This document shows positions 14,292 through 45,207 of a DNA stretch of 46,559 nucleotides, one piece after another. Position 1 is the first letter of the stretch. Each line of letters opens with the position of its first letter. The stretch comes from Chlamydiota bacterium (lineage in GTDB: Bacteria > Chlamydiota > Chlamydiia > Chlamydiales > Parachlamydiaceae): positions 1 through 46,559 of the forward strand of contig JABDAE010000008.1 in NCBI GenBank assembly GCA_013289325.1, written 5' to 3'. The notes beneath the pieces are model-generated. The model was not told the origin of the DNA and did no database searches. It saw only the letters and a program-made list of their open reading frames with translations. Both the position numbers and the translations under genes were made by a program.

Positions 14292-14382
14292 GGAGTGCAT
14301 TCCTTATCCAAAACTTTGCGTGTTTGAAAGCAGGATACTCCAATTTTATATTTATCACTAGCGCTTAATCCACAAAAACATT

Positions 14383-14407
14383 AAATTTTGAAACACTTTC
14401 GGTATAA
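14383..14407. repeat. half-copy of the TACCGAAAGTGTTTC repeat family
   Basis: A 25-bp stretch (AAATTTTGAAACACTTTCGG then TATAA) nearly identical to the right end of the palindrome at 14843-15004. It lies just before the DUF3592 gene and in the same orientation as the palindrome's right arm, so the gene is bracketed by direct repeats about 600 bp apart. Another partial copy is at 45170-45207. Confidence 0.75.
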
Positions 14408-14425: not shown

Positions 14426-14923
14426 TTGTATTTACGAGAATTATGGAAAGGCCTTTTGGCCATTGTGTTGTTATCAGCTATTGGCTATGGCGCGCTTGCC
14501 TGCTACCTGACGATCCACTATCATCAGTTGTCTGAAAAAACGACCCTTAGTGCTCCGATTTTCTGGGAAATAGTTGAAAAATCTGACGACGATTATATGC
14601 TAGCCTCTACGTATCAGTACAGCATAGAAGGGCGACCATTTAGCGGCAAAATGCTTTGGAACCAAACCCATTATCTCAATCGCTATGCAGCAGAGCAGGC
14701 AATTAAAGATCTAGATAAAGAGCGCTTTACTCTTTGGTATAATGGGCATAACCCGAAAGACTCTTCCTTAGAAAAGCATTATCCTTATAAAGAGTGGATC
14801 TACGCGGCGATCCTTTCTGCTATTTTCTTTTACCTATTACTTTTGTACCGAAAGTGTTTAAAATTTGGTTTTTGGCAAAGAAAAAATCCCCGGGATCGAA
14901 CGATCGGAACCAACCCAATATGA
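14426..14923 (+). CDS. DUF3592-like membrane protein with palindrome-encoded C-terminus
   Basis: A 165-residue protein with a membrane helix at each end (residues about 9-31 and 124-141) around a soluble domain. The central segment (YQYSIEGRPFSGKMLW, then RFTLWYNGHNPKDSSLEK) is like DUF3592, a family of small membrane-anchored domains of unknown role. It starts at a TTG with a GGAG 9 bases upstream. The last ~26 residues (from LYRKCLKFGFWQRKNP on) are encoded by the left half of a 162-bp palindrome that also supplies the stop codon, so the original C-terminus was probably replaced or extended when the element arrived. Confidence 0.65.
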   Translation: MYLRELWKGLLAIVLLSAIGYGALACYLTIHYHQLSEKTTLSAPIFWEIVEKSDDDYMLASTYQYSIEGRPFSGKMLWNQTHYLNRYAAEQAIKDLDKERFTLWYNGHNPKDSSLEKHYPYKEWIYAAILSAIFFYLLLLYRKCLKFGFWQRKNPRDRTIGTNPI

Positions 14924-15004
14924 TAATATGGGGCAGGTTCCGATCGTTCGATCGCGGGTTTTTCTCAAAGCCAAAAACCAAATTTTGAAACACTTTCGGT
15001 ACAA
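14843..15004. repeat. 162-bp near-perfect palindromic element
   Basis: The left arm starts TTGTACCGAAAGTGTTTAAA and the right arm ends TTTGAAACACTTTCGGTACAA. Pairing continues inward through GGTTTTTGGC, the run of A/T, a GATCGAACGATCGGAACC block and its complement, to a small loop near 14922-14925. Each arm is about 75 bp with few mismatches. It overlaps the end of the DUF3592 gene and stops 12 bases before rdgB. Transcribed, it would form a very stable hairpin able to act as terminator or processing site. Confidence 0.9.
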
Positions 15005-21156: not shown

Positions 21157-21541
21157 GTGGGATTTAAGTCCTTTTAAAAGTTATAAACAACGTTTCCACA
21201 AAGGTCTCTGAAGCAATTACCCGCAAGAATCTACCACGATCCTATCATACCTCGCAAGGAAATTATCGAGAAAGGTGAGATCTTTTGATGTAAATCTTTG
21301 ATCATCAAAGGTGGAGTATGGCGTATTTTTTTAAGTGTCAATTTTCTCCTTGAAAAACGATGTGCAAGTGGTTGTAAATTAATTTTTTATAATTTAGATT
21401 TATACACAAGGGAACTCAAAAGAGAACTCAAAATTTGCCGCCCTTCGAGGCTGGCTTAATGAGAAAAGCTTTAGGGAAATTCAAGATGTTGTTTTCTCTT
21501 TATCAAAAAGAAATTTTGAAGTAGCTTAGGTAGTTATGCGT
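21157..21541. other. intergenic region upstream of dnaA
   Basis: This AT-rich stretch holds the dnaA promoter region. One perfect DnaA-box match (TTATACACA, 21400-21408) and one near match (TTATAAACA, 21181-21189) are present, and a short direct repeat (GGAACTCAAAA / GAGAACTCAAAA near 21411-21434). No gene was found. Too few boxes were seen to call an origin. Confidence 0.4.
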
Positions 21542-21707
21542 ATATACTCAAGCCACCTGAATCCTGGAATTTTGACGGCGTTGGCTTGGCTGCAATTTTT
21601 TGGTCTTCACTTAGCGCTTGCCTATGGCAATGGTCGCTCGTTCCAGACACAAAAAACTTGCGCCGCCTCCTTGTCAAAATTCCAGGATTCAGGTGGCTTG
21701 AGTATAT
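21542..21707. repeat. 166-bp palindromic element upstream of the efflux operon
   Basis: Two perfect 35-bp inverted arms: ATATACTCAAGCCACCTGAA and on to TTTTGAC (21542-21576), and the complement starting GTCAAAATTCC (21673-21707). The ~96-bp centre shows weaker self-complementarity. It lies just before the signal peptide of the outer-membrane efflux gene and is open in that gene's frame, which could add 60 residues from an ATG at 21536. Confidence 0.88.
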
Positions 21708-21715
21708 TCATCAGC

Positions 21716-22969
21716 ATGTTTTTCTTGCTTTCTTCATTTTTCAGTGTTCTTTTTGCAGAGCAGCCTTGCAAAAGTGCATATTCATTTAATGATGTTTGGA
21801 CACTTACATTATTGAATAATCCAGAACTTAAGACTTTTAGTTACGATTTAAGAGCGTCTGATGCTAAAATCCTACAGTCATCGCTTTATCCAAACCCGGG
21901 GTTGGATGTAGAATCAGAAGATATCCATCGCCCTATCATGCAAACCACATTTTTATTAAGCCAGCAGATAGAACTTGGAGGCAAGAGGCAAGCGCGCATG
22001 AATTTTGCTAAAATGGAGCAAGATAAAACCTTTGTCGATTATGAAGTGAAAAAAAGGGAACTTTTCGTTGAGACTAGTTTGTTGTTTATCGAAACGCTCA
22101 TTCAGCAACAGAAAATTTCGTTTTTAGAAGAGAGTCTTAAGGGATTGCAAGATTTTTCTCAAGCAGTGGATAAACGGGTAAAAGCTGGGAAAGCCTCTCC
22201 CATTGAAGAAGCGAATTTTATTGTTTTATTAAGTACAGCAGAGCTTGATCTTAAAGATGCGCAAAGGGAGCTTAAAAATGCTAAACTTAAATTAGCAGCT
22301 CAATGGAGTGCTGTGGGGAGTGCCATAGGGAGTGCTGTGGGGAGTATAACTGATGCGCAAGCTTGCGTTTGTAGCGATAGTTTTAGCGTAACCGGTAATC
22401 TAGATTGGCCAGCTAAGCTCATTTCGCTTGAAGAAATGGGCAAGCTCATTCAAGAGCATCCCCAAATTGCCAGATTTTCCTTGGAATACAGCGTGCGCAA
22501 AGCTCAAGTGGCACTTGAAAAAAGTATGGCGTACCCAGATGTCAATGTAAGAGGGGGACCTCGCTATTTAAAAGAAGATAATAAGTGGACCTACGTGGTG
22601 GGGGTCGCAATCCCTTTACCTATCAATGACCGCAATCAAGGAAAAATTTGGGAAGCAAGAGAGAATCTTGAAAAGTTAGAACATGAAAAAGACGCTGTAT
22701 GGGTGAAGCTTTTGACAGAATTAAACACTTCCTATTTAACGATTCAAAAGGCAGAAGATGAGCTCTACTTTTTTAAAAACAAGGTTCTTCCAGCGGCTCA
22801 AAAGGCTTACGACTTTAGTCATAAGGGGTATGAGTTAGCAAGGTATAATTATTTAGAAATGCTTGAAACCGAAAAAATGTATAGAGCGTCTCAAATGCGC
22901 TATATACAAGCTTTAGGAGAGTATCATAAGGCTTTGGCAATTCTTCAAGGACTCATTAGGACTAATTAA
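21716..22969 (+). CDS. czcC: outer-membrane efflux protein, CzcC/TolC type
   Basis: The outer-membrane channel of a three-part metal efflux pump, about 417 residues from the chosen start. That start (21716) begins a signal peptide (MFFLLSSFFSVLFA); the frame is open back to 21536 but that part is palindromic repeat DNA. Two OEP repeats are visible: FNDVWTLTLLNNPELKTFSY early, and LISLEEMGKLIQEHPQIARF later, with VVGVAIPLPINDRNQGK, as CzcC proteins have. A 12-base tandem repeat (22306-22350) encodes WSAVGSAIGSAVGSI, a local expansion in a loop. It is followed after 2 bases by czcB. Confidence 0.85.
   Translation: MFFLLSSFFSVLFAEQPCKSAYSFNDVWTLTLLNNPELKTFSYDLRASDAKILQSSLYPNPGLDVESEDIHRPIMQTTFLLSQQIELGGKRQARMNFAKMEQDKTFVDYEVKKRELFVETSLLFIETLIQQQKISFLEESLKGLQDFSQAVDKRVKAGKASPIEEANFIVLLSTAELDLKDAQRELKNAKLKLAAQWSAVGSAIGSAVGSITDAQACVCSDSFSVTGNLDWPAKLISLEEMGKLIQEHPQIARFSLEYSVRKAQVALEKSMAYPDVNVRGGPRYLKEDNKWTYVVGVAIPLPINDRNQGKIWEARENLEKLEHEKDAVWVKLLTELNTSYLTIQKAEDELYFFKNKVLPAAQKAYDFSHKGYELARYNYLEMLETEKMYRASQMRYIQALGEYHKALAILQGLIRTN
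22306..22350 (+). repeat. 12-bp tandem repeat inside czcC
   Basis: Units TGGAGTGCTGTG, GGGAGTGCCATA, GGGAGTGCTGTG and a partial GGGAGTATA encode (W/G)SA(V/I) repeats. Unit length is a multiple of three, so changes in number keep the frame. Confidence 0.7.
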
Positions 22970-27200: not shown

Positions 27201-27401
27201 ACAGCGCTTGTGGCATCCCTTGGCTTTATTCCCATGGCGCTTGCCACTGGGCGCGGCGCCGAGGTGCAAAGGCCACTTGCAACTGTTGTCATTGGGGGAA
27301 TTATTTCCTCGACGATCTTAACATTATTCGTCCTTCCCTCTTTATACTTGATCTTAAACCGGGAAAATGAAGAAACATCTTTTACTCAATGCATTGAGTA
27401 A
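24243..27401 (+). CDS. czcA: heavy-metal RND efflux transporter, CzcA/CusA family
   Basis: A 1052-residue proton-driven pump with 12 membrane helices and two large periplasmic loops. Membrane helix 4 reads AIDFGIIIDGAVIIVEN, the pattern with two Asp and a Glu that marks heavy-metal (HME) RND pumps exporting divalent cations such as Zn, Co, Ni or Cd. RPSVFGVLIIMVVYLPIL and GRGAEVQRPLATVVIGG are other family blocks. The CusA methionine pair for copper was not verified. The gene ends inside a 22-bp palindrome where its stop overlaps that of the opposite gene; both proteins end FTQCIE. Confidence 0.93.
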   Translation: MAMLDKIIKFSIEKSWIVFLGVLVLVFFGIYNYQRLSIDAVPDITNVQVQINTEAPGFSPLEAEQRITFPIETAMLGLPHLDYTRSLSKYGLSQVTVAFKDGTDIYFARPLISEKLQEVKVKLPDGITPVMGPIATGLGEIFMYVVKEDPSKEKGKYTPTDLRTIQDWIIKPQLRNTKGVVDVSAIGGYVKQFHVTPYPDKLIAYQIGLHDIIKALKENNSNVGAGYVEKSGKQYLIRSSGQVKNIEEIRKIVVKVADGHPIYIEDVADVDLGKELRTGAATANGEEVILGTVFMLMGQNSREVSHAVGEKIKEINQTLPKGVIADPVYDRTILVDATIETIRNNLLEGALLVVIVLFVLLKNFRAAILTALVIPLSMLFAITGMVESKISGNLMSLGAIDFGIIIDGAVIIVENCLRRLSEEQHKLNRLLSKDERRQVTLEATQEVIRPSVFGVLIIMVVYLPILTLTGIEGKMFHPMAYTVLLALTGALLLSLTFIPAAVAAFLGNKMAKKENGLLHLAKTVYEPLLKIALSSRYLVVLTATVFVIFCLLLASRMGGEFLPNLDEGDMAIHSLRIPGTGLSQALAMQDVVEEKLKEIPEVKGTFSKIGTADIATDPMPPSVADGFVIMKPRSEWPNPRLPRAELVARIEKALRELPGNNYEFTQPIQMRFNELISGVRSDVAVKVFGDDMQVLLDTGKKIEEALKLIVGSADVEIEQTSGLPILTIAINREKLARYGLNIADVQEVVSVFMGGKQAGEVFEGDKRFDIVVRLPESLREDLDTLKRIPIPLESHSADKANMPHVILLGDVADFEIKEGPNQISRENGKRVLNVTANVRERDLSGFVAEAQHKIKESVSIPAGYWLGWGGQFEQLISAAERLKIVVPIALGLIFILLISTFGSFKDAMIIFTGVPLALTGGVIFLALRDIPLSISAGVGFIALSGVAVLNGIVMLSFIKRLHEERHYTLENAIIKGSLMRLRPILMTALVASLGFIPMALATGRGAEVQRPLATVVIGGIISSTILTLFVLPSLYLILNRENEETSFTQCIE

Positions 27402-27402
27402 A
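27381..27402. repeat. 22-bp perfect palindrome containing two opposed stop codons
   Basis: TTTACTCAATGCATTGAGTAAA is fully self-complementary. It contains the TAA of czcA (27399-27401) and, on the other strand, the TAA of the giant gene (27384-27382), and encodes FTQCIE at both C-termini. Confidence 0.9.
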
Positions 27403-30400
27403 GTCAATATCCTTCTTGCACAATTCATTTCCTTGTACTGTAAGCTCCAAAATAACACTAAGTCTACTTAAGAACTCTTGACGGAAGGGAAGATTTTCTT
27501 CTCTTTGTGCAAATTGATATAAGCCATGTAACTCTGCAACGACCTCGGCATCACTTTCCTTAATCCCTTGTAAAAACTTCAAAAGCCGCGAAGAGAAGCT
27601 ACTACTTGATGGATCTTCTTCGGACGGCGAGCTATGAAGAGCTATTTGGGTCGCTATTTTAAGTATTACCTTGCATTGCTCAATAAGAGGCTTAAACCTA
27701 AATCCGGCAGTTGGAGACGGCAACTTAACGCAATCTCTTGAACCAGAATCATTTGCGCTGTGGCGGTCCAACACCCTTTGAGAATGTCCCACCCCATTGC
27801 AAAGTGATTCTAATTCAAGATCTTGCATTAATTTGCCATCTCGAACTGCCGGATCTAGGTTAAACCTAGAAACGGGATTTGTCACCACTTCATTTTTTCC
27901 CTCTTTTTGCAGGTCATATACAGCCTCTACAAAGACCTCTACAAAGGCAAGTCCATAATGGATGATCGTCCAAACTGCTTCTGCGATCTCTTTGGGGTCA
28001 AGGAATATTTTGAACGCCATCACAGGTGCTCCATTAGTGGCTTGAGACACCAAATGGTTTAAGACTGTCTCCAGTTGTGTATCGATCTCTGAAGATGAGG
28101 AATGAGGTTGCCGTTGAAAACTTGCCCACATATTCAGCATCAGGACTGAAAGAGTTTCTGTGATAATTCCAATTTGTGTCTTACTTAAGATCGCGATATA
28201 TTTAATTATCAACGTCTCCTTAGTAAGTGCAACTGGAGCTCCTATAGAAGTTTTTGAAAAGACAAAAAGATCGATCAGCTCATTTAAAGTCTCTTGTCTT
28301 TCCCGTAAAATAAATAAGCGTTGATTGACTATAGATTCAGTGGAACTCATCGCCATAAATCCATTCATGACAAGGTCAAAAATAGGAAGGTAGGCATCAT
28401 ATTCAGCTGACGGGTGCTTAGCCTTGCGGACCGTAGCGCTTAAATTAAAAATAAGCGTTTTATAAAAAGAGACTCTTCCATGCACATCGCTTAGGAAGAT
28501 CTTTGCAACCAATGTAGGTTCAAAACTTTGTGTTAAATTTAGATGTAAAGGCATAAGCTTATCGATCAAAATTTTATACACATTTTTTAACCACAAATCT
28601 TCAGCTTTTTTCGGAAAAATTGTCTGGCATTTATCGCATGCGAATTGGATTTCCTTTGTATAAGAAGTTTTAGGATTTAAACTTTTTAACTTCTCAAAGA
28701 GATTCTCTTTAGGAGAAGATAAGCCCATTAAAGGATAGGCGTTTGCCGGACGAAAATACTCGTTTAATGTGTGAAGCCACTTGCGCGTCTTTTTTCCACC
28801 TGCTTTATTTATATAGGGGTCTATGTTCGAAAAAGTGCTCTTCCATCCTTCAACTAATTCGTTTTGCGTTTTCATGGAGTCAAAATGTTGCATGACTACA
28901 ACATCGCGCTCTAAAAGGCGGACGCATTTTTTAAAGTTAGTTTTTCCAAATTCGGTGTGATTTGATTTCTTTAGATTTTCTGAAAAAACTTCACAAAATT
29001 GGCTATATGGAGGGCCATATGTTAAGCAAGTGAGTACATGCGATTTGATTTCTGATTCAGTGAACGCTCTCTTATGAAATTCAGATAGGCGATCATTGAC
29101 AAATTGGGTTTCCCAAACGATAGTTTCCTCTATTTTGGGGAGAAGATTTTGTACTAATTTATCTAATCTCTCTTGCGATGTACAGGCAAAGCTAATGGCG
29201 ACGACAAACGCGTGATAAGAGGGGGATTGAAAACAAGCGGCAATGGCCCCCTCGCCTCTTTCCCATAATAAAGAGATCAGCATCTCATTGATCTGTAAAA
29301 CCTTGTGATAGCCATCAAATGAGGTCCCACGTGAGAGTAAAACAACAATGGCTTCAGTTGCTTTGCTAATTCCATTAATAAATAGATAATCTTGCTCTAA
29401 TCCCCCTGGCATTTGCTTTAAATAAGTTAACGCTTTTTTAAAATCGTTACATCTTACGGCCACTTTAATGCGCTCGATAAGTAAATAATCGTAATAGCTT
29501 TTTTGCTCTTTGGATAACTTTGAGCGCGATAATGTGGAAATGTAGTGATCGGCCTTATCGCTTAAAAATTCACAGTGCATAAAGATTAAGGCAAGGTTTA
29601 ATTGAGAGACACTTTTGTTCCCATCGATTAACTGTATCTTAAGATGTGTGAAAACCAATACAATGGATTGACTAAGAGAAGATCTGCTCTTTTCTTCTGT
29701 ATCCACTTCAGCTGAATGACATTCAATCCAGTTTAGAAAGTTTGGATAAATATGCGTTGTAAATGCGATGAGTTCTTCATGAAGTTCGGCAGGAGCCTCT
29801 TTTATATATGAATGGAAAAGGATTAACACATCGCCATAATTCAATAAAGATGGATCTCTTTCGATTTGCTTCATCCACGTATATAGCTGAATTTGGATTT
29901 GGCGCGTTTTTAATAATAATGCGATTTGTTCATCATGTTGAAACAATTGGCGGTATTGATAAAATTGCAATTGCTGTTCACCGTTGCAAGGGAAAAGAAA
30001 CAACTTTTTCAGCAAATGGACCTGTAGTTTGTCTTGAGAAAAGCTATTTTGCCATAATTCAAGAAGCAAGGTCACTTGATCGACATTGCCCTTTTGCATA
30101 TGGGAGATAGCTGCTGTAATCAATTTTTCGCAAAGTTCCTTATCGACCTGCTTAAGCGATTGTAATTCAATAGTTAAAGTCTCTATAAGTTTTTTATAGA
30201 TGGAGCGATCCAGCTCATTATCTTGTGGCCACTTTTTGATAAGTGATAGTAAATAATTGCAATACTCTTTTTTCTTTATTTTTTGTTTACATTTTTCAAG
30301 GGTTAAAAAACATGCCTTAAACGCTTGAACCTCTATCGCTTTTTCTAACGCCTCATCAAGACCTTCTAAAATAGTTTGGGACTCAGTCTTTAGCGAAGTT

Positions 30401-32223
30401 TTAACAAAGGTCGATTCAATGCGTTTAAAGTTGACTGTCTTGATTGCCTTTTGAAAGATCGCGATATCTGCAAGCACTTGATGTTGACTCATCATTTCCA
30501 AAGCTTTTGAAAACAGTTGCTGAAAAAAAGACTCATTACAGCTTAAGAATCGCTCTGGGTGGTCTATAATGCCTTTATACCCCATTAAAAATAGCGTTTG
30601 TGGGATGTTTTCTTCAGCGAGCAATCCCAAATAAATTGCTTGGTACTCCGATGGATCAAGACGCAACTGTTGCTCTCCCATCTCAAGAAGTGTTTGCAGC
30701 GCCCATTCCTTATTGGGATGGTTTTTTATGTTTTCAAAAATTAAGGTGAGCAAGGACTTGTTTAACGAGGGATTGCCAAGACACGTCCTTAAACATTTGT
30801 CTTTTTCCTCCTCATTCCAGGAGGAAATAGCTGTAATAATGTCTTCAGGGTTGTAAAGGCCAATTTTTTTGCATGTGCGGAGATGGTGGCCAAGCTCATC
30901 AGGGGTAAAAGCGAGAAACTGCTCCAAATGTGTTTTTGGTTTTTGCAAAAGAGGAGGGACTTCCCCTTCTTGTAGAGCGAGTAGTTTTTTTTTGCGAATC
31001 TTAAAAACTTCAACAAAACACAGAATAAATGCCTCGCGCAAAAGCGGATCTTGCTTAAACCAATTAGCAAGTGCAAAAGCCCTTGTTCCTTCCAAAAAAC
31101 AACCATAAGTCATTTGTTTAAGGTAAATCAATGTATATTGATCGCAAGATTCTGTCGCAAGGGCATGCATGAAAGCAGAGATTGCGCAAACTAATTGCTG
31201 ATTGTTACATTCGGCAATTGCCAGCTGCCAAGAGCTGTCTTGAGAAATTTCACTTATCCCTGAGGATATCCCAGATGATGTGATGGAGGATGCCGTTTCA
31301 TTTTCGCTTGCATCAAAGACTTGCGTGGCTCTATTTAACCTAAAAACGGCAGTTGGAGACGCTAACTTGCCACAATCTCTTGAACCAGAATCATTTGCAG
31401 TGGGGCGGTCCTTCACCACTTGGGAATGTCCCGCCCCACTGCAAAGTGATTCTAATTCAAGATCTTGTGCCAATTTAGCATCTCGAACTGCCGTTTTTAG
31501 GTTTAACATAGCTTTTGGGCAAAGCAGTTCTTTAATTTTTTTTAGACATTCATCAAGAAATTTGGATGGTTTAGGTAATCGTGTTGTTTCTAAAACGTAG
31601 TAATTCCAAATATATGCGATCATCCCAATTGGATTACTTGTTGAGTTATGTGTTTTCAAATATTCTAAAATTTGAAAAACGCCTTGCTCTTTATGATGGT
31701 TTGAAAATATTAAGAACAAATCTTCCATCTCATCTTTTTTCAAAAAGCGGCAAAAGGCAAGACGCAGCAATGTTTTAGTAAACACGTCATGACTTGTCTT
31801 GATAAGGGTCGAATTTCGCGATGCATGGTCTAAGAGGGCGAGATTGATCGAATGCAGAGAACTTACATCACTTAAGGGATTTATGTGGATAAAGGATAGC
31901 TCAGCTTGTTGTAAGGGAACTCTTCTTTTTAGCGCATCTGAAAGGGGAATGACAACCTCTTCTGCCCGTGTAATATGTGAAAGATCAGATAAAGGGTGAA
32001 AGACGATTTTGATTTCGGTGTCTGCGCTTGCATTGCATTCACAAAGGGGATCTACACGGGCTTTGCAACCAAGTGTAAATAACCCCCCATGTAATTCCCC
32101 ATGCCCCCCCCCTCCCAGGTAACTCCATTTTATCTTCCAAAAAAAGGCGCTTTTGAAAAAACAATCCATGTAATACGGCCTTATCTTTCTTGAATAAAGC
32201 TTCCAAAACACTTGCAGCGTCAT
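27382..32223 (-). CDS. giant helical-repeat protein, C-terminal frame (downstream of poly-G frameshift)
   Basis: A very long open frame of which about 1574 residues lie after the G tract at 32104-32112. It is almost wholly alpha-helical, with many LxxxL/F-rich helices that suggest solenoid (TPR-like) repeats; no enzyme motif was found in this part. Directly after the G run it reads HGELHGGLFTLGCKARVDPL, which continues naturally from the upstream frame (32039-32896). With eight or eleven G in place of nine, the two would form one protein of about 1840 residues. The first ~40 residues of this frame (upstream of the tract) are out-of-frame coding of the upstream gene and probably not real. Two in-frame 174-bp palindromic elements add about 58 residues each. 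It has no signal peptide. It may be cytosolic or a secreted effector; the role is unknown. Confidence 0.65.
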   Translation of the reverse strand: MTLQVFWKLYSRKIRPYYMDCFFKSAFFWKIKWSYLGGGGHGELHGGLFTLGCKARVDPLCECNASADTEIKIVFHPLSDLSHITRAEEVVIPLSDALKRRVPLQQAELSFIHINPLSDVSSLHSINLALLDHASRNSTLIKTSHDVFTKTLLRLAFCRFLKKDEMEDLFLIFSNHHKEQGVFQILEYLKTHNSTSNPIGMIAYIWNYYVLETTRLPKPSKFLDECLKKIKELLCPKAMLNLKTAVRDAKLAQDLELESLCSGAGHSQVVKDRPTANDSGSRDCGKLASPTAVFRLNRATQVFDASENETASSITSSGISSGISEISQDSSWQLAIAECNNQQLVCAISAFMHALATESCDQYTLIYLKQMTYGCFLEGTRAFALANWFKQDPLLREAFILCFVEVFKIRKKKLLALQEGEVPPLLQKPKTHLEQFLAFTPDELGHHLRTCKKIGLYNPEDIITAISSWNEEEKDKCLRTCLGNPSLNKSLLTLIFENIKNHPNKEWALQTLLEMGEQQLRLDPSEYQAIYLGLLAEENIPQTLFLMGYKGIIDHPERFLSCNESFFQQLFSKALEMMSQHQVLADIAIFQKAIKTVNFKRIESTFVKTSLKTESQTILEGLDEALEKAIEVQAFKACFLTLEKCKQKIKKKEYCNYLLSLIKKWPQDNELDRSIYKKLIETLTIELQSLKQVDKELCEKLITAAISHMQKGNVDQVTLLLELWQNSFSQDKLQVHLLKKLFLFPCNGEQQLQFYQYRQLFQHDEQIALLLKTRQIQIQLYTWMKQIERDPSLLNYGDVLILFHSYIKEAPAELHEELIAFTTHIYPNFLNWIECHSAEVDTEEKSRSSLSQSIVLVFTHLKIQLIDGNKSVSQLNLALIFMHCEFLSDKADHYISTLSRSKLSKEQKSYYDYLLIERIKVAVRCNDFKKALTYLKQMPGGLEQDYLFINGISKATEAIVVLLSRGTSFDGYHKVLQINEMLISLLWERGEGAIAACFQSPSYHAFVVAISFACTSQERLDKLVQNLLPKIEETIVWETQFVNDRLSEFHKRAFTESEIKSHVLTCLTYGPPYSQFCEVFSENLKKSNHTEFGKTNFKKCVRLLERDVVVMQHFDSMKTQNELVEGWKSTFSNIDPYINKAGGKKTRKWLHTLNEYFRPANAYPLMGLSSPKENLFEKLKSLNPKTSYTKEIQFACDKCQTIFPKKAEDLWLKNVYKILIDKLMPLHLNLTQSFEPTLVAKIFLSDVHGRVSFYKTLIFNLSATVRKAKHPSAEYDAYLPIFDLVMNGFMAMSSTESIVNQRLFILRERQETLNELIDLFVFSKTSIGAPVALTKETLIIKYIAILSKTQIGIITETLSVLMLNMWASFQRQPHSSSSEIDTQLETVLNHLVSQATNGAPVMAFKIFLDPKEIAEAVWTIIHYGLAFVEVFVEAVYDLQKEGKNEVVTNPVSRFNLDPAVRDGKLMQDLELESLCNGVGHSQRVLDRHSANDSGSRDCVKLPSPTAGFRFKPLIEQCKVILKIATQIALHSSPSEEDPSSSSFSSRLLKFLQGIKESDAEVVAELHGLYQFAQREENLPFRQEFLSRLSVILELTVQGNELCKKDIDFTQCIE
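27692..27865. repeat. 174-bp palindromic element, copy near the 3' end of the giant gene
   Basis: Ends TTAAACCTAAATCCGGCAGT and the near complement at 27838-27865, with inner complementary blocks (GAATCATTTGC / GCAAAGTGATTC). It is translated in the giant gene as FNLDPAVRDGKLMQDLELES and on to SGSRDCVKLPSPTAGFRF. Same length, orientation and reading frame as the copy at 31334-31507, at about 85% identity by eye. Confidence 0.9.
31334..31507. repeat. 174-bp palindromic element, copy near the 5' end of the giant gene
   Basis: The whole element is close to its own reverse complement: outer arms AACCTAAAAACGGCAGTT, middle arms around GAATCA-TTTGC, inner arms CAGTGGGGCGG and CCGCCCCACTG. Minus-strand translation is LNLKTAVRDAKLAQDLELES ... 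SGSRDCGKLASPTAVFRLN; the plus strand reads FNLKTAVGDANLPQSLEPES ... SNSRSCANLASRTAVFRFN, so both strands encode nearly the same peptide. Confidence 0.92.
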
Positions 32224-45113: not shown

Positions 45114-45169
45114 ATGCGGCTTCTTTAATAAATCGTATTTTATATTATACACAAGAAAATTCAAAAATT

Positions 45170-45207
45170 ATACCGAAAGTATTTCAAAATTTGGATTTTT
45201 GGCTTAC
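45170..45207. repeat. partial copy of the TACCGAAAGTGTTTC repeat family
   Basis: ATACCGAAAGTATTTCAAAA then TTTGGATTTTTGGCTT matches the left arm of the palindrome at 14843-15004 with two substitutions. It lies upstream of aroK and ends exactly where the truncated aldolase homology begins. Confidence 0.75.

Follow-up and report, generated by a model that had tools for sequence, protein, structure and literature searches.

A palindromic MITE, probably mobilised by an IS1380-like transposase, lies in frame within protein genes of a Parachlamydiaceae bacterium

How does one open reading frame come to hold two long palindromes, in the same orientation and the same frame, with no stop codon in either of them? 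The question is raised by a gene in the window, that is, the whole stretch of 46,559 nucleotides analysed here. A sequence-only reading of this stretch had described two stop-free units of 174 bp in a giant protein, had likened them to the Rickettsia palindromic elements (RPEs) and had known of no such description in chlamydiae. Here we argue, with a probability that we put at about 0.85, that the palindromes are miniature non-autonomous DNA transposons (MITEs) moved by an IS1380-like transposase, and that their length and stop-free frame would permit insertion into proteins as a translated segment. All of our conclusions are drawn from the sequences of draft assemblies.

Structure of the element and its two copies in P0001

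The features of the locus are the following.

27382 to 32223, minus strand: host ORF of a protein of unknown function (P0001), 1613 amino acids, with two in-frame elements and no Pfam domain
31339 to 31501, minus strand: element copy A, 163-bp core, CCTAAAAACGGCAGTT..AACTGCCGTTTTTAGG, encoding LKTAVRDAKLAQDLELESLCSGAGHSQVVKDRPTANDSGSRDCGKLASPTAVFR
31334 to 31338, no strand: target duplication TTTAA of copy A, low-coordinate side
31502 to 31506, no strand: target duplication TTTAA of copy A, high-coordinate side
27697 to 27859, minus strand: element copy B, 163-bp core, encoding LDPAVRDGKLMQDLELESLCNGVGHSQRVLDRHSANDSGSRDCVKLPSPTAGFR
27692 to 27696, no strand: target duplication TTAAA of copy B, low-coordinate side
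27860 to 27864, no strand: target duplication TTAAA of copy B, high-coordinate side
27865 to 27877, plus strand: older element end (CCTAGAAACGGGA), present as a remnant immediately next to the duplication of copy B

Copies A and B are both present as first described, stop-free and sharing orientation and frame, and are 84% identical. Their core is an imperfect palindrome of 163 bp that starts with CCTA and ends with TAGG (ends CCTARAWMCGGCAGTTSRAG / CTYSAACTGCCGKWTYTAGG; terminal inverted repeats CCTARAAACGGCAGTT / AACTGCCGTTTYTAGG), and with both 5-bp direct repeats the unit measures 173 bp and not the 174 bp originally given. The net gain for the host at each insertion is 163 + 5 = 168 bp, which lowers the earlier figure of about 58 added residues to 56, and because the core plus one duplication amounts to exactly 56 codons the reading frame of the host is restored. 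The predicted folding energies of the two hairpins, -101.9 and -115.2 kcal/mol, lie far below the value of about -42 kcal/mol obtained for shuffled sequences (z about -17). The only RNA family matched, mir-60, scored below its threshold (27.2 against 67 bits), as is typical of hairpins, and was rejected. The idea that both strands encode nearly the same peptide holds in part, with 24 and 28 of the 54 residues in common for the two copies, but the middle of the peptides differs and the opposite strand of copy B carries a stop codon. For copy A with its flanks, structure prediction gave a mean pLDDT of 58.5, with a helical N-terminal half and low confidence for the rest. Tandems of element, duplication and element, such as the one formed by copy B and the remnant, are also seen elsewhere in the genome.

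Copy number and target duplication

The sequence-only reading had named confinement of the unit to P0001 as one finding that would speak against a mobile element; in the 2.92-Mb genome a 20-nt motif from the interior of the element occurs 190 times and a 16-nt element end 444 times (0 for the reversed control), and we estimate the number of copies at about 200. A copy-by-copy survey covering 2.10 of the 2.92 Mb yielded 147 full-length copies, 112 of them being exactly 163 bp long. An exact 5-bp target duplication borders 133 of the 147, nearly always of the form WTNAW (TTTAA, ATTAT, TTAAA, ATAAT and ATGAT among others). In the first 120 copies the flanks match over 5 bp in 112 cases and over 3, 4 or 6 bp in none, the background being 14% exact 5-bp agreement in mismatched pairs of flanks, a value due to the strong bias of the target sequence. 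The element is hence short, present in high copy number, devoid of a transposase of its own, bounded by inverted ends and flanked by a duplication of fixed length, as MITEs are.

Other repeats came to light in the survey. Mini-elements of about 41 to 68 bp with both ends, most of them with duplications (C1:22529, C5:34352, C14:31575, C32:7674 and C9:39082 in this genome), are likely internal deletions of the hairpin. A second inverted-repeat family with perfect 35-nt arms (165 to 167 bp, ATATACTCARGCCACCTGAATCCTGG, 24 end matches in 2.10 Mb) has a copy in the window at 21542 to 21707, overlapping the start of the ORF at 21536 to 22969. A third repeat family, TTTTGAAACACTTTCGGTAYAA, is found in the window at 14376 to 14407, 14843 to 15004 and 45168 to 45199, with 43 matches in 2.10 Mb that lie partly in inverted pairs.

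Copies inside open reading frames and homologs without the insert

Among the 147 full copies, 66 are intergenic, 49 lie over the ends of ORFs and 32 (about 22%) are inside ORFs, where 30 codons or more flank the element on either side. The search for the unit in other proteins, as had been proposed, found it in frame, at different positions and with target duplications, in 30 different ORFs. All 32 of these copies are 163 bp long and begin in the sole phase that keeps the frame, and a length of 1 mod 3 is found in 32/32 of them against 80/115 of the other copies (Fisher p = 8e-5), a uniformity that is partly driven by our criterion because each orientation has one open frame. The orientation is sense in 23 and antisense in 9 (p = 0.02), and we saw no frame-breaking insertion inside an ORF among the 147 full copies in 2.10 Mb. 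Random WTNAW sites fall within ORFs in the frame-keeping phase in 28% of cases and in intergenic DNA in 13.7%; comparing 32/0.28 with 66/0.137, the density of retained in-frame insertions is roughly one quarter of that between genes.

Among the hosts that Pfam identifies are PheT, SMC, RlmN, a Phage_integrase (Xer-like), AroDE (with two copies), MenC, an AMP-binding enzyme, a chorismate-binding enzyme, a GloB-like hydroxyacylglutathione hydrolase, an FtsX permease, an S41 peptidase, YaiI/DUF188 and a histidine kinase. Dozens of copies lie within genes, and many proteins of these bacteria would carry 56-residue segments derived from a mobile element; such segments affect annotation, orthology assignment and work on structure.

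Comparing orthologs and paralogs with and without the insert, also suggested at the outset, uncovered homologs that lack the element. P0001 has two paralogs in its own genome (45% identity for C61 and 28% for C98), and C61, of 1702 amino acids, is without both segments of P0001 and carries its own antisense in-frame copy at another position. PheT has one full-length match in this genome; the homologous sequence of the PheT of a relative (G002) is continuous across the insertion site, and the other PheT proteins of the family are without the segment. In the case of AroDE, the alignment with the proteins of nine relatives reaches only the first insert, and the ORFs of the relatives have 459 to 529 amino acids versus 594 here. 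As a separate matter from the insertion of the element, the PheT of this genome (C73:1903-4332) and that of G002 are both without the N-terminal EMAP-type tRNA-binding segment that other members of the family have.

The open frame in related elements

An ordinary MITE could have an open frame by coincidence, the copies within ORFs being mere survivors with no shaping for translation. Among the genomes of the family that were searched, six others hold related elements. Most copies from G003, G006, G010 and G012 have a length of 163 bp, carry 5-bp duplications and are open in the sense frame, a pattern seen in several genera, and the peptides they encode are related to LETAVQDxKVMQDFxxESLxxGxEHSQKVKAxPIxSDYGSKDCVNLxxSTAVSR; in G003, 10 of 17 copies are within ORFs and 10/10 of these are in sense orientation. 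Between subfamilies the consensuses diverge by as much as 25%. All seven lineages have an open sense frame, and most have stops in the antisense frame. This speaks against coincidence, as neutral drift simulated along the tree left all seven open in 0.7% of the runs (mean 3.4 of 7). Since the simulation is a simple one, with ends fixed and stem pairing left out, we count this value as moderate evidence only. In favour of coincidence, that one frame is open by chance in about 10 to 20% of comparable random palindromes, and no excess of differences at third codon positions was seen between the subfamily consensuses. The consensuses thus show no trace of selection for a particular amino-acid sequence, and the moderate evidence at hand would point to selection that keeps the frame open rather than selection for the peptide itself.

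Elements in other phyla speak on both sides. Scanning about 85,000 species genomes for a 22-nt end gave at least 61 stretches, of which single matches may be due to chance and many carry the two ends together with exact duplications. Among the matches listed are chlamydiae and metagenome-assembled genomes (MAGs) labelled by their submitters as Verrucomicrobia, Puniceicoccales, Opitutaceae, Geobacteraceae, Hydrogenedentes, Acidobacteria, Desulfobulbaceae and others, and a search of ten genomes for the end pattern gave 4 to 255 ends per genome. As judged by its ends, then, the element type is not confined to chlamydiae. In Geobacteraceae, a Verrucomicrobia MAG, Hydrogenedentes and Thermoanaerobaculia, most elements with these ends are closed in the frame in question, and none was found inside an ORF among those examined, which favours coincidence. 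Against it stands a Puniceicoccales MAG with a 163-bp core whose two strands are both open in that frame, despite a very different interior (33 to 38% identical to the chlamydial ones, where shuffles give about 25% and a maximum of about 36%). The BOG12 MAG also argues against it, having open cores of 76, 91 and 163 bp of which the 76- and 91-bp derivatives are likewise 1 mod 3, with 6/7 records within ORFs, although some records represent one copy taken from two loci. On balance we regard a coincidentally open frame as possible but less likely than not. The broader proposal, that IS1380-mobilised MITEs spread across phyla have been selected into protein-compatible cassettes (core plus duplication a multiple of three, stop-free, with any interior) in chlamydiae and at least one or two further lineages, seems to us evenly poised between right and wrong. 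If it were true, selfish DNA would have arrived at coding palindromes convergently, and they would be no mere oddity of Rickettsia; the 5-bp staggered insertion would set the frame.

The candidate transposase

In four genomes, IS1380-like genes (NF033539 as best family; PF13701) carry a matching and correctly oriented element end nearby. Such an end lies about 40 to 60 bp from the ORF in G012 (ATAAA|CCTAAATTCGGCAGTTGAAAG) and in the Hydrogenedentes genome G058 (CCTAGAAACGGCATTTGG), and near the ORF in the Opitutaceae genome G063 (TTCAA|CCTAGAAACGACGGTTG). In the genome studied here, a fragment of an IS1380-like transposase at C28:20240-21424 is followed by AACTGCCGTTTTTAGG|ATGAT, where a solo end could be due to chance because about 444 ends are present. 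The next ORF reads through this downstream end in frame (QLTAVFRMI), and by eye the upstream genes are of IS66 type. The NF033539 scores of the end-linked transposases, 96 to 143 bits, are below the cut-off of 180; the sole IS1380 above it, in G065, has different ends of its own and a 5-bp ATAAA duplication. Short target duplications of 4 to 5 bp are a trait of the IS1380 family, and the 5-bp WTNAW duplication of the element fits them; its ends are also similar to the ends CCTAGATTC.. of ISEcp1, a member of that family.

No autonomous copy complete with its two ends and target duplication was recovered in the genomes examined, and pairs of ends 0.4 to 4.5 kb apart with equal duplications in this genome were only pairs of elements and one cassette of about 1 kb. 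The latter (C2:15478-16500) consists of a nucleotidyltransferase/HEPN-like gene pair with a full element on one side and a solo end on the other, the same TTTAA lying outside both, and is possibly a composite unit. A 1530-bp pair of ends in a Verrucomicrobia MAG was discarded as an autonomous element, having unequal duplications and no recognisable transposase, as were two other DDE genes of this genome as the source, whose candidate ends are different (C46, CCTAACTCCGCCGG; C68, CCTAGG).

Placing these results into a model, the MITE would insert at WTNAW and duplicate those 5 bp, most likely with an IS1380-like DDE transposase acting in trans. A target beginning at codon position 1 (WTN|AWN) would keep the frame, and the element, being free of stops in the restored frame, would lengthen the host protein by 56 residues (WTN AWC plus 54 codons). 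Insertions that break genes would be purged by selection and those in frame could persist, even in genes such as pheT, present here in one full-length copy, and the host proteins probably tolerate the segment.

Alternative explanations for the inserts

The insert could be removed or bypassed after transcription, by excision of the hairpin or by ribosome bypass, leaving the proteins unchanged. The great stability of the hairpin and the tolerance of the insert by conserved genes would suit such a process, but constraint for an open frame would then be needless, yet the sense frame is open throughout, and we know of no intron or intein signal for a hairpin of this kind; we consider it very improbable. 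About as improbable is that the elements are true RPEs, homologous by descent or transfer. The behaviour is alike, RPEs being palindromes of 100 to 200 bp in frame in conserved genes (PMC2229807, PMC3767692), but they are described as 105 to 150 bp long with the duplication entered as '?' (PMC2229807), while in the chlamydial element, compared here by description, the duplication is a clear 5 bp and the ends are IS1380-like.

Equally remote is the reading of the ORF-internal copies as chimaeras in the assembly of a metagenome-assembled genome. The assembly has 198 contigs, and contig ends fall inside elements in 10 of 33 partial copies; nevertheless, paired matching duplications argue against false joins, and exact two-sided duplications in 133/147 copies are mostly incompatible with them, the host ORFs are homologous on both sides of the insert, and the pattern is repeated in independent assemblies. 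A duplicated domain or module of the P0001 protein family, which two similar copies within one protein might suggest, is refuted by the presence of the segment in about 30 unrelated proteins and in intergenic DNA, in either orientation and nearly always bounded by 5 bp, and by its different position and inverted orientation in the paralog C61.

Comparison with known systems

The preferred reading, a MITE that an IS1380-like transposase would mobilise, retains part of the likeness to RPEs seen at first: RPE-like behaviour as a palindromic mobile element that is probably translated is supported, but the element is a MITE marked by its 5-bp target duplication, its ends are IS1380-like, and no kinship with RPEs was shown. 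RPEs are fused in frame in conserved genes, and the product of one such gene, gmk, is translated and active (PMC2229807; PMC3767692; PMC10969869). As in RPEs and the Wolbachia palindromic elements (WPEs), we find short palindromes in many copies, intergenic and in frame in conserved proteins that are unrelated to one another, in bacteria with an obligate intracellular life (PMC2229807; PMC3767692; PMC10969869). The mark of RPE-type elements, an in-frame palindrome in unrelated protein genes, is seen here in 32 copies in 30 ORFs. Unlike RPEs and WPEs as described, the chlamydial element combines a precise WTNAW duplication of 5 bp with a core of fixed length (163 bp) and with IS1380-like ends; RPEs and WPEs come from another bacterial phylum, the duplication of RPEs is entered as unknown, and the cited papers name no transposase. 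We would thus claim likeness of behaviour by description, not membership of the RPE family. As to novelty, we found no earlier report of such elements in chlamydiae in the literature searched, whose coverage excluded most subscription journals, but the occurrence of the same ends in several other phyla means that they are no peculiarity of chlamydiae.

How protein-coding palindromes such as RPEs spread is an open question, the target duplication of RPEs being listed as unknown in a review table (PMC2229807). With clean duplications, a candidate transposase, homologs without the insert and filled sites in core genes, mobilisation, translation and tolerance become directly testable in the chlamydial system.

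The element resembles the IS1380 family in having PF13701/NF033539 transposases beside matching ends and in the 5-bp duplication that the IS1380 of G065 also shows; unlike the insertion sequences of that family it is without a transposase, and the linked transposases are divergent. It is like Coxiella QMITE1/2, ERIC, Correia and YPAL in being non-autonomous, with inverted repeats, target duplications and occasional in-frame fusions (PMC5896051; PMC10969869; PMC2229807), but the direct repeats of QMITEs are of 2 to 3 or 7 to 11 nt and their in-frame cases are sporadic. What sets the chlamydial element apart from other ORF-bearing MITEs is a core that together with its duplication makes 56 codons, and the residence of about 22% of its full copies in ORFs.
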